This document shows, one piece after another, positions 26,377-30,654 of a stretch of 64,000 nt of DNA (the first letter of the stretch is position 1; each line of letters starts with the position of its first letter). The notes below the pieces were generated by a model. That model did no database searches. It was given only the letters and a program-made list of their open reading frames with translations, and was not told where the DNA came from. Both the position numbers and the translations under genes were made by a program. The stretch comes from Halorhabdus amylolytica (lineage in GTDB: Archaea; Halobacteriota; Halobacteria; Halobacteriales; Haloarculaceae), in NCBI RefSeq assembly GCF_004944975.1, contig NZ_SPQG01000001.1:305116-369115 (forward strand). The letters run 5' to 3'.

Positions 26377-27867
26377 ATGACCCTGCGCGTGACGAACACG
26401 CTTTCGGGCGAAAAGGAGGTTTTCGAGCCACAGGACCCCGATGCCGTCACACTGTATTACTGTGGCCTGACGACCTCCGACCCGCCCCACCTGGGCCACG
26501 CCCGCGGGTGGGTCCACGTCGACGTCATGCACCGCTGGCTTTCGTGGCTGGGCTACGACGTCCACCACGTCGAGAACTTCACCGATGTCAACGAGAAGAT
26601 CGTCGCCCGGGTCGGCGAGGACGGGGACAGCGAAGCCGATGTCGCCCGATCCTACATCCAGGACGTCATCAGGGACATGCGATCGCTGAACCTGAAACGC
26701 GCCGAGGTCTACCCCCGCGTCTCCGAGCACGTCCCCGAGATCATCGACCTCGTCGAGACGCTGATCGACCGGGGGTACGCCTACGAGGCAAACGGCTCGG
26801 TCTATTTCGACGTGACCGAGTTCGACGAGTACGGCGAGCTATCGAACCAGACCGTCGAGGAACTCGACGCCCAGGGTGATCCCGAGGAGCGCGGCGAGAA
26901 GCGCCATCCCCAGGACTTCGCCCTCTGGAAGGCCGACGGCGTCGACCCCGTGGACATCGAGGAACACCGCCATCCGGAGGCTGCGCCCGCCGAGGAGGCC
27001 TGCGAAACGGCCCAGACGTGGGATTCACCGTGGGGGGAAGGACGGCCAGGCTGGCACATCGAGTGCTCGGCGATGAGCATGACTCACCTCGATGAGACCT
27101 TAGACATCCACGTCGGCGGCCAGGACCTGGTCTTCCCCCACCACGAGAACGAGGTCGCCCAGAGCGAGGCTGCAACGGGCGAAACCTTCGCCAACCACTG
27201 GCTACACGTCGGTCTCCTGGAGACCAAAGCGGAGAAGATGTCTTCCTCGCTTGGCAACTTCGCCACCGTCGAGGAGGCCATCGCCGAACACGGCCTCGGC
27301 GTCGTCCGGACCTTCCTGCTGTCGACGGCCTATCACAGCCGGGCGACCTACAGCGAGGAGACGCTGGCCGAGGCCGAAGAGCGATTCGATCGGCTGCAGC
27401 GTGGTTACGAGCGCGCGGTCGAAGCCGCCGACAGCGTCGACGCGGCGACGAAAGTCGCGGACGACGATCTGCGGGAAGCTGTCGAAGACACGCACAGGGC
27501 CGTTCCCGAAGCGATGAACGACGACTTCAATACCCGCGAGGCGCTGGCCGCGCTCTTGGAACTGACAAACGCGGTCAACCGACACGTCGACGAGCGGGAC
27601 GCCTACGACTATCGCGGGCTCCGGCGGGCGATCGAGGCCTACGAGGAGTTCGCCGTCGACGTGCTGGGCCTGCCGCTGGGTGGGGATGGGGGCGACGGCG
27701 GCGACGTCCGCTTGGCCGAGGAACTCGTCGAACTCGTTCTGGACGTCCGCGAGTCAGAACGCGAGGCCGGCAACTACGAGCGCGCCGACGAACTGCGCGA
27801 CGAACTCGACACGCTGGGTGTCGACGTCGAAGATAGCGACGACGGACCGACGTATCGGTTGCCCTGA
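26377..27867 (+). CDS. cysS: Cysteinyl-tRNA synthetase
   Basis: The 496-residue class I synthetase charges tRNA-Cys. The HIGH-type motif is HLGHARGWVHVD (near residue 40), preceded by the zinc cysteine in YYCGLTTSDPP; the second zinc region is GWHIECSAMSM. The KMSKS motif is AEKMSSSLGNF. The DALR/anticodon domain follows, and an acidic insertion with Gly/Asp (GGDGGDGGDV) lies near residue 437. The start at 26377 gives MTLRVTNTLSGE; the frame back to 26305 is not family-like. The last 100 bases are present again, diverged, at 30567-30654, so the current 3' end may have been supplied by an inserted element. Confidence 0.93.
   Translation: MTLRVTNTLSGEKEVFEPQDPDAVTLYYCGLTTSDPPHLGHARGWVHVDVMHRWLSWLGYDVHHVENFTDVNEKIVARVGEDGDSEADVARSYIQDVIRDMRSLNLKRAEVYPRVSEHVPEIIDLVETLIDRGYAYEANGSVYFDVTEFDEYGELSNQTVEELDAQGDPEERGEKRHPQDFALWKADGVDPVDIEEHRHPEAAPAEEACETAQTWDSPWGEGRPGWHIECSAMSMTHLDETLDIHVGGQDLVFPHHENEVAQSEAATGETFANHWLHVGLLETKAEKMSSSLGNFATVEEAIAEHGLGVVRTFLLSTAYHSRATYSEETLAEAEERFDRLQRGYERAVEAADSVDAATKVADDDLREAVEDTHRAVPEAMNDDFNTREALAALLELTNAVNRHVDERDAYDYRGLRRAIEAYEEFAVDVLGLPLGGDGGDGGDVRLAEELVELVLDVRESEREAGNYERADELRDELDTLGVDVEDSDDGPTYRLP
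27765..27867 (+). repeat. cysS 3' end, left copy of the island-flanking direct repeat
   Basis: This segment encodes the last residues of CysS from GNYERADEL to the TGA. It repeats at 30567-30654. Relative to this copy, the other lacks four codons after GAACTG and differs mostly at third codon positions: GAC/GAG, GAA/GAG, GGA/GGG, CGG/CGA, TTG/CTA, CCC/CCT. The pair brackets the TnpB island like an attachment-site duplication. Confidence 0.85.
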
Positions 27868-27900
27868 GGACAAATCGACGAGGCCCAAGCGCTCCGTAAA

Positions 27901-28635
27901 TCAACAGGAGAGTCCCTTCCAGATCTCTTCTCCCAGTGCGAGAGTTCCGAGCAAGAGAACCGTTATCGTCCCATTGGAGATGAGGACAGCCGAACCAAAG
28001 GCGACGATCGCCACCATGGGAACGAGCACAAAGACGAGTCCAGTGATGGCGAGACGCGTTCCAGGCCCAAAGAACTGCGCTCCCGAGTCTGCGGGTGACT
28101 CACTGATTTCGACGCCCGCACGTCGAATATTGGCGAGTATTTCGGGAAGGTTCTCTCTCGATACGATAACCGATGACGGCGTCGTGAATCGGTCAACGAG
28201 TCCTGAGCGTCCACCGCTGACGCGGATGAGCGCTACGTCCCCGAACGAGTGAACGGAGGCAGAGACAACTGCATTCAGCTGTATCGTGAATTCCCGCCGA
28301 CCGACAATCCCCGAGTCATCACCCTGGACAGCCCTGAGGATTCGCGTCGTGGAGTCCATTTCGACATGAGTTGTTGTGTACTGATAATAGCCAATGCTCC
28401 AGAGGGAAAGCGTCAGGAAGCCACAGAGCGGGATGATACCCGCAGCGAGCTGTGGTTCGATCGCGAATGCACCGAGAAGGATCGCAATCGGCAACACAGC
28501 GAAGAGCAACACCCACGACAGCACAGCGGGATACGCCGTGGCGAGCGCCAATCGCGTTGGCAATCCGAAGATCCCACGCAGATCGACGTCAGACACAGCC
28601 CTGACAGAGTCCGGCACCTCTTTTCGAGAGGACAT
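27901..28635 (-). CDS. Unidentified membrane protein with PH-like central domain
   Basis: The 244-residue protein has two N-terminal hydrophobic helices (about 35-58, 64-86) and two C-terminal ones (about 193-213, 218-235). Between them is a soluble beta-rich domain (HVEMDSTTRILRAVQGDDSGIVGRREFTIQLNAVVSASVHSFGDVALIRVSG) whose pattern resembles bacterial PH domains found in membrane proteins. Codon use is visibly less GC3-rich than the neighbours, which suggests transfer. It ends 33 bases after the cysS stop on the opposite strand. Function unknown. The PH-like call is a pattern judgement only. Confidence 0.65.
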   Translation of the reverse strand: MSSRKEVPDSVRAVSDVDLRGIFGLPTRLALATAYPAVLSWVLLFAVLPIAILLGAFAIEPQLAAGIIPLCGFLTLSLWSIGYYQYTTTHVEMDSTTRILRAVQGDDSGIVGRREFTIQLNAVVSASVHSFGDVALIRVSGGRSGLVDRFTTPSSVIVSRENLPEILANIRRAGVEISESPADSGAQFFGPGTRLAITGLVFVLVPMVAIVAFGSAVLISNGTITVLLLGTLALGEEIWKGLSC

Positions 28636-28709
28636 CGTTATCGGAGATTCCCTCTCTTGGCAGCATTTATTCGGTACCTAGACATTATTTTGCAGTGAAC
28701 TACCCTACC

Positions 28710-30206: not shown

Positions 30207-30213
30207 TGTGCGA

Positions 30214-30232
30214 ACGAGAGCTTCGCTCTCGT
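30214..30232 (+). repeat. Perfect hairpin, 8-base arms
   Basis: ACGAGAGC (30214-30221) pairs with GCTCTCGT (30225-30232) across TTC, eight bases after the previous hairpin. The tandem arrangement supports a structured IS end. Confidence 0.7.
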
Positions 30233-30566
30233 CAACGCTACTCGGTCGCTTCGCTCCCTGCGTTGCTCCTTGAGGAAGGGGACTTAGCGCCTTATTCCAG
30301 TTAATTGTGGGCAAAGTGTGACTCGACTGCACGATTATTCCTGTGATGGACACTCTGTGTGACCCAGTATCGATAATAATTCATACGAAGGAGAGTTTGA
30401 TCCGGCTTAGGCTCTTAGTGTATACAAATAAGACTCGTTGACCAAAGATTAGCCCCGCTCAGGTCGGATAGTTACGCGATCAAAAGTGCCGTATCAAGTC
30501 CTAAGTGACATTACTCCAAAAACGAGAGATGATCGGCCTAATGATAAACCTGGCTTGGACGTGTGG

Positions 30567-30654
30567 GGCCGGCAACTACGAGCGCGCCGACGAACTGGCG
30601 GCGCTGGGTGTCGAGGTCGAGGATAGCGACGACGGGCCGACGTATCGACTACCT
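30567..30654 (+). pseudogene. Displaced cysS 3' end (second copy)
   Basis: These 88 bases encode GNYERADEL-AALGVEVEDSDDGPTYRLP, the CysS C-terminus minus four residues. The stop is gone (CCTGAA follows in frame). Nothing upstream or downstream of it resembles cysS. Differences from cysS are nearly all synonymous third-position changes, so this sequence was under coding selection before it was cut off. It marks either the original chromosomal cysS tail or a tail brought from another strain. Confidence 0.85.

Follow-up and report, generated by a model that had tools for sequence, protein, structure and literature searches.

Integrative elements are known to enter genes at their 3' ends and to restore the gene that they have entered. 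Displacement of gene ends has also been described for the rhs genes, in which a 3' end is acquired laterally by homologous recombination and the old end stays downstream together with a short copy of the gene body; the body copies at such a locus are identical, whereas the ends differ (Jackson et al., 2009, PMC2935791). In bacteria, homology-facilitated illegitimate recombination has been described (PMC3240628), and the same process has been proposed for the displaced gene ends in T6SS immunity arrays (PMC5361080). Lastly, insertion with a long target duplication is a genome pattern described in Helicobacter pylori (Nobusato et al., 2000, as cited in PMC1643837). The locus described in this work is an instance of this known kind of gene-end displacement, rather than a new system.

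The sequence examined here (the window) is a stretch of 64,000 nucleotides from a haloarchaeal genome (G000:C1:305116-369115). Within it, the last 103 bases of cysS (27765-27867) have one diverged copy on the same strand, which is located 2802 bases away at 30567-30656, and the two copies bracket an island. The features of this locus, in window coordinates, are:

26377-27867, plus strand: cysS (cysteine--tRNA ligase), intact, 496 aa, with PF01406 (E = 1.1e-107), DALR_2 and CysS_C domains
27765-27795, plus strand: identical stretch in cysS, 31/31 bases matching 30567-30597, with a putative crossover at or just after its 3' end
27796-27867, plus strand: resident cysS tail, probably an exchanged end, 49/58 identical to the copy; best matches outside its own genome G004 and G006 (85%)
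27901-28635, minus strand: gene for a membrane-type protein of 244 aa, cargo of the island; no Pfam, PHROG or PADLOC match
28692-30305, minus strand: IS1341-type TnpB element, both ends of which match a compact, internally deleted copy on another contig (G000:C20, L039 5552-5776)
28710-29942, minus strand: tnpB, intact, 410 aa, PF07282 (E = 1.9e-24) and PF01385 (E = 4.7e-19)
30306-30566, no strand assigned: AT-richer spacer, GC about 0.50 compared with 0.65 in cysS, ending at the putative illegitimate junction 30566/30567
30567-30656, plus strand: broken cysS tail, probably displaced, with deletions of 12 bases and 1 base; best match the cysS tail of G002 (88% over 76 bases)
30751-31586, minus strand: patchy segment outside the duplication, with a truncated ORF (30956-31408); 86-89% identity with G006, G093 and G070

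The initial annotation had proposed that a cysS tail and its diverged copy enclose a membrane protein and a TnpB element, and this description was borne out, as the copy was recovered in a six-frame search of the genome with an E value of 1.4e-7. The duplication is real and far above chance; a scan of 448 kb of this contig yields only eight local direct repeats as strong as the cysS tail pair (E <= 1e-8, spacing of 0.3-20 kb, length under 1.5 kb). The cysS protein shows 85-90% amino acid identity with its homologs from six congeners (i.e., six other species of the genus).

Similar to the rhs genes, cysS appears to have kept its body and gained a new 3' end, with the old end left downstream. 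However, the rhs tips are non-homologous modules that occur in arrays. At cysS both ends are allelic versions of a single essential enzyme, there is just one displaced tail, which is broken, and a route through a circular intermediate is not favored. With homology-facilitated illegitimate recombination the locus would share one homologous and one illegitimate end that together import non-homologous DNA, but it differs from the bacterial cases in that it is read from haloarchaeal sequence and that the join, which would lie inside the anchor gene, duplicates a part of that gene. No direct evidence for this homologous/illegitimate mechanism in archaea was found in the literature that was searched for it. 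As in the H. pylori pattern cited in PMC1643837, foreign genes lie between the copies of a long direct repeat that originates from the target; in that account the repeat is read as a duplication of a single target, whereas the cysS copies are different alleles past the first 31 bases. The two partial gene-end copies (27765-27867 and 30567-30656) that bracket an insert also resemble those of elements integrating at gene 3' ends, but an integrase, a fixed core and recurrence are all lacking at the cysS locus.

The alignment of the two tails has a pattern that had escaped the initial annotation, viz. 31 identical bases followed by nine differences in the next 58 aligned positions. If divergence were uniform, the first 31 of 89 columns would stay free of changes with a probability of about 0.017 by both Fisher and permutation tests, which on 89 bases is a modest statistic, suggestive but not overwhelming. 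In the 31-base stretch, both copies differ from every congener at identical sites, because they are identical to each other there. Beyond it, the copy and the resident tail are as divergent as tails from different species within the genus: the copy matches the tail of G002 at 52/58 positions and the resident tail at 49/58, and the latter matches the tails of other species at 43-49/59, so that the copy is little closer to it than these are. As tails of 60 bases are too short for a supported tree, the comparison was based upon a ranking of nearest matches. Among the 146 genomes of the family, the copy ranked closest to G002, followed by G005, G003 and G060, and only after these came the resident tail; the closest matches of the resident tail outside its own genome were G004 and G006. 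By this ranking, the two tails are different alleles and not each other's nearest relatives, which suggests that the resident end has probably been exchanged and that the downstream copy is probably the recently displaced end.

The substitutions between the tails had been described initially as lying at third positions and as nearly all synonymous; the third-position bias is present (6/9), but only four of the seven substituted codons are synonymous (E/E, G/G, R/R, and L/L) and three are nonsynonymous (D/A, T/A, and D/E), in which the resident end has D, T, and D against A, A, and E in most relatives. A supposed CCC/CCT substitution is better read as a deletion, since one C is missing before the stop (CCC TGA to CC TGA) and the copy, having lost its in-frame stop, reads on out of frame. 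The four-codon gap that had been noted does exist, and it is a 12-base deletion in the copy relative to the resident tail, placed past the 31 identical bases, which plausibly arose between GACGAACTG-type direct repeats. When these deletions are set aside, the copy retains the coding sequence for AALGVEVEDSDDGPTYRLP, the peptide typical of the genus, and the proposal that it was a working cysS end until recently thus holds.

On these grounds, the locus was probably left by a single imprecise recombination with DNA of a related haloarchaeon, in which one end was homologous and lay in cysS and the other was illegitimate. The incoming DNA would have carried a diverged cysS end and other genes, here the gene for the 244-aa membrane protein. 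After pairing with the resident cysS, it would have recombined with the gene at the 3' end of the 31 identical bases or just beyond it; cysS would thereby keep its body and acquire a different, functional end some 20 codons long. At its other end the incoming DNA would have lacked homology, and an illegitimate join would have been made there at 30567, within the resident cysS and some tens of bases 5' of the crossover. The bases from the join to the crossover would then be duplicated from one source and be identical, whereas beyond the crossover the gene would hold the donor sequence and the copy the native one. The old tail, no longer translated, would have started to decay, and the TnpB element would have entered the island later. 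From this pattern we infer a direction of transfer, which of the tails is native, a linear intermediate and a single event. No donor with the membrane gene beside cysS was found and no empty site is seen in the congeners, and for the window the direction of the incoming DNA is therefore a putative one.

A search of 391 genomes of the class revealed one other duplicated cysS tail, in a genome of a different family (G300); among the 146 genomes of the family, there was no case besides the window's own. A second match in the class search, in G447, was a weak match of 28 residues inside another ORF and not a tail copy. In G300, the copy and the gene are identical at 77/79 positions in the 5' part and at 78/105 beyond, with a 12-base deletion in the copy as well, and the identical-then-diverged pattern is thus seen at both loci, with different joins and crossovers. 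The displaced tail in G300 is followed by a DUF6517 gene, and in all five of the relatives from the same genus that were examined such a lipoprotein gene directly follows cysS (the assignment is based upon Pfam for G300 and upon similarity by eye for the relatives). As the displaced tail still precedes its ancestral neighbor, the empty site that is not seen for the window is provided by G300. A comparison of this kind had been suggested initially for the window, where none of the six congeners joins its cysS tail to the sequence after 30656, and the analogous check succeeded in G300. The full-length cysS of G300 is followed by a gene for an M55 peptidase, in a stretch that is 86.6% identical to one downstream of cysS in G194. 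After the M55 gene, the region between the tails contains a truncated 5'-nucleotidase gene and then 80 bases of a gene that in G194 is found 6 kb downstream of cysS; this piece runs up to the point where the cysS fragment begins. At the join, G300 thus has truncated genes on either side, the mark of an illegitimate junction. Since most of the sequence between the two tails comes from the surrounding chromosome, a local tandem duplication followed by allele replacement is a possible explanation that fits G300 too. A 13-base motif is common to the G300 junction and window positions 30727-30739, and it has two copies in 332 kb.

Other explanations for the window locus may be weighed against these observations. 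If both tails came from one cysS, by simple tandem duplication or by insertion with a long target duplication, and then decayed unevenly, no donor would be needed, and the H. pylori insertion, as cited in PMC1643837, would provide a parallel. Such an origin predicts sister tails, a possibility that the initial annotation had itself raised; the copy and the resident tail are, however, each closer to the tails of other species than to each other, and an event with one homologous and one illegitimate end is favored over this and over the two alternatives considered next. The preponderance of third-position changes (6/9) and the genus-typical peptide in the copy also do not fit decay after duplication, nor does the lack of change in the first 31 bases, and we regard a simple duplication as improbable. 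The same order of parts would result from a circle that carried a 3' fragment of cysS and the island and that integrated, in the Campbell manner, by a single homologous crossover in cysS; circular intermediates have been proposed for the rhs tips (PMC2935791). In that event, however, the identical stretch would represent donor against native sequence and should have diverged like the rest, whereas it is 31/31 identical in the window compared with 49/58 beyond, and the contrast between 77/79 and 78/105 in G300 would be unlikely without conversion. The integration of a circle is, for these reasons, also unlikely.

The initial annotation had likened the locus to the work of tRNA-gene integrases, i.e., an element inserts at the gene end and supplies a new C-terminus. 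The part of this proposal that stands is that the end was probably replaced, with the old one left downstream. A site-specific element would have as its attachment core the cysS codons AGNYERADEL, would bring a substitute tail that restores the gene, and would rely on a recombinase that acts in trans or has since been lost. attL and attR would be expected to look like this, with a 31-base identical core and, beyond it, tails that have diverged but remain compatible with coding, and tyrosine integrases are encoded on other contigs of this genome (13 PF00589 matches off C1). In contrast, the 505-kb contig C1 has no PF00589 match (serine recombinases lie outside this profile search), the arrangement does not recur in the 146 family genomes, and viral contigs and phages yielded no cysS tail. 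Further, the duplicate in G300 starts at about residue 430 as compared with about residue 463 in the window, i.e., about 33 codons upstream, and no core is shared; the differing breakpoints argue against a fixed attachment site, and differing duplication starts are as expected for illegitimate joins. As a site-specific element predicts a fixed join and an integrase, neither of which is seen, this reading is not favored and we consider it very unlikely.

The GC content falls from 0.65 in cysS to 0.50-0.58 over the island and stays low until about 31600. The 244-aa membrane protein has only patchy haloarchaeal relatives, the best of them (39%) in G163, where it is not beside cysS, and in the donor search the gene was absent from the congeners, plasmids, and viral contigs. 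No donor in which it adjoins cysS was found in the genomes searched, and a wider scan of genome contigs returned mostly distant bacteria and no congeners. The tnpB gene, whose product has by eye the motifs GIDVG, VAVEDL, and DRDANAAWNIL, is part of an element (28692-30305) that is separated from the two tails by 0.8 kb and 0.26 kb, and its ends do not coincide with the repeat. Since it touches neither tail, the element is a passenger, which would have entered the island in a separate, secondary insertion. Transposition of the IS200/IS605 kind by TnpB was considered as the cause of the duplication and was rejected, as the element ends inside the island. Directly upstream of tnpB there is a small, ribbon-helix-helix-like ORF (29943-30068, ATRKNISIRDDQEEWIQENHLSLSSFVQEKLDELIEQRES), and a similar small ORF is also present directly upstream of a different tnpB in G163 (L134 7546-7899); it may regularly accompany this group of TnpB. 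No homology was found for the spacer 30306-30566, and no relation to cysS is seen in the sequence on the 5' side of 30567.

Downstream of the copy, the order is the patchy segment (30751-31586), a DUF7312 gene, and then metG. The corresponding segments in G006, G093, and G070 are single loci that keep about 0.42 kb missing from the window and encode a 289-aa protein, which has no Pfam, PHROG or PADLOC match and of which the window ORF (30956-31408) is an internally deleted version. The G070 copy is interrupted by a 277-aa transposase-like ORF. It is possible that the segment is a small cassette that is mobile or has been exchanged. In G001, the closest congener by cysS, the gene is followed by an unrelated 232-aa ORF, the same small ORF as in the window and metG, and beyond a few bases the sequence after the copy has no homology to the post-cysS sequence of any congener. 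The DNA that originally followed the copy in the window has itself been replaced. Judged from these comparisons, there has been more than one round of remodelling over the full cysS-metG interval, and this may explain why the relatives examined show no empty site.

These results suggest that the gene of an essential aminoacyl-tRNA synthetase can have its end replaced and its old end retained downstream, with no toxins, integrases, or arrays involved, and paired gene tails around an island are no proof of an integrase. It is conceivable, although at present rather doubtful, that one-sided homologous displacement of gene ends is a general and unrecognized route by which foreign genes come to lie beside essential genes in haloarchaea, the allelic tail repairing the target, and that the cysS-metG interval is one of many such scars. 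If this were true, each transfer could be dated and oriented by its broken tail. Should such scars be common, they would provide a readable record, consisting of the join, the crossover and the old allele, of the entry of foreign genes into archaeal chromosomes.

Such scars are uncommon but not unique, as at least one other of the eight comparable repeats in the 448 kb involves gene-tail copies. One gene-tail repeat (L165 1929-2189 and 6372-6630, i.e., G000:C1 241929-242189 and 246372-246630) consists of the ending YELYGLTDEEIEIVEE and the sequence after the stop, in copies that are 4.4 kb apart. It has a third short copy, and its identity is highest after the stop, a gradient opposite to that of cysS. 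Elsewhere on the contig, two genes (G000:C1 208886-209113 and 215717-215944) have in common a 228-base stretch of 94% identity, with an assembly gap (a run of N) by one copy; this could be due to gene conversion or an assembly artefact. Additionally, two copies of a 98-base element with terminal inverted repeats are present at L170 2293-2390 and 9267-9364 (G000:C1 390292-390389 and 397266-397363). Their arms differ between the copies and yet stay complementary (ACTGCTGTAA/TTACAGCAGT versus ATTACTCTAA/TTAGAGTAAT), which suggests a conserved hairpin or a MITE.
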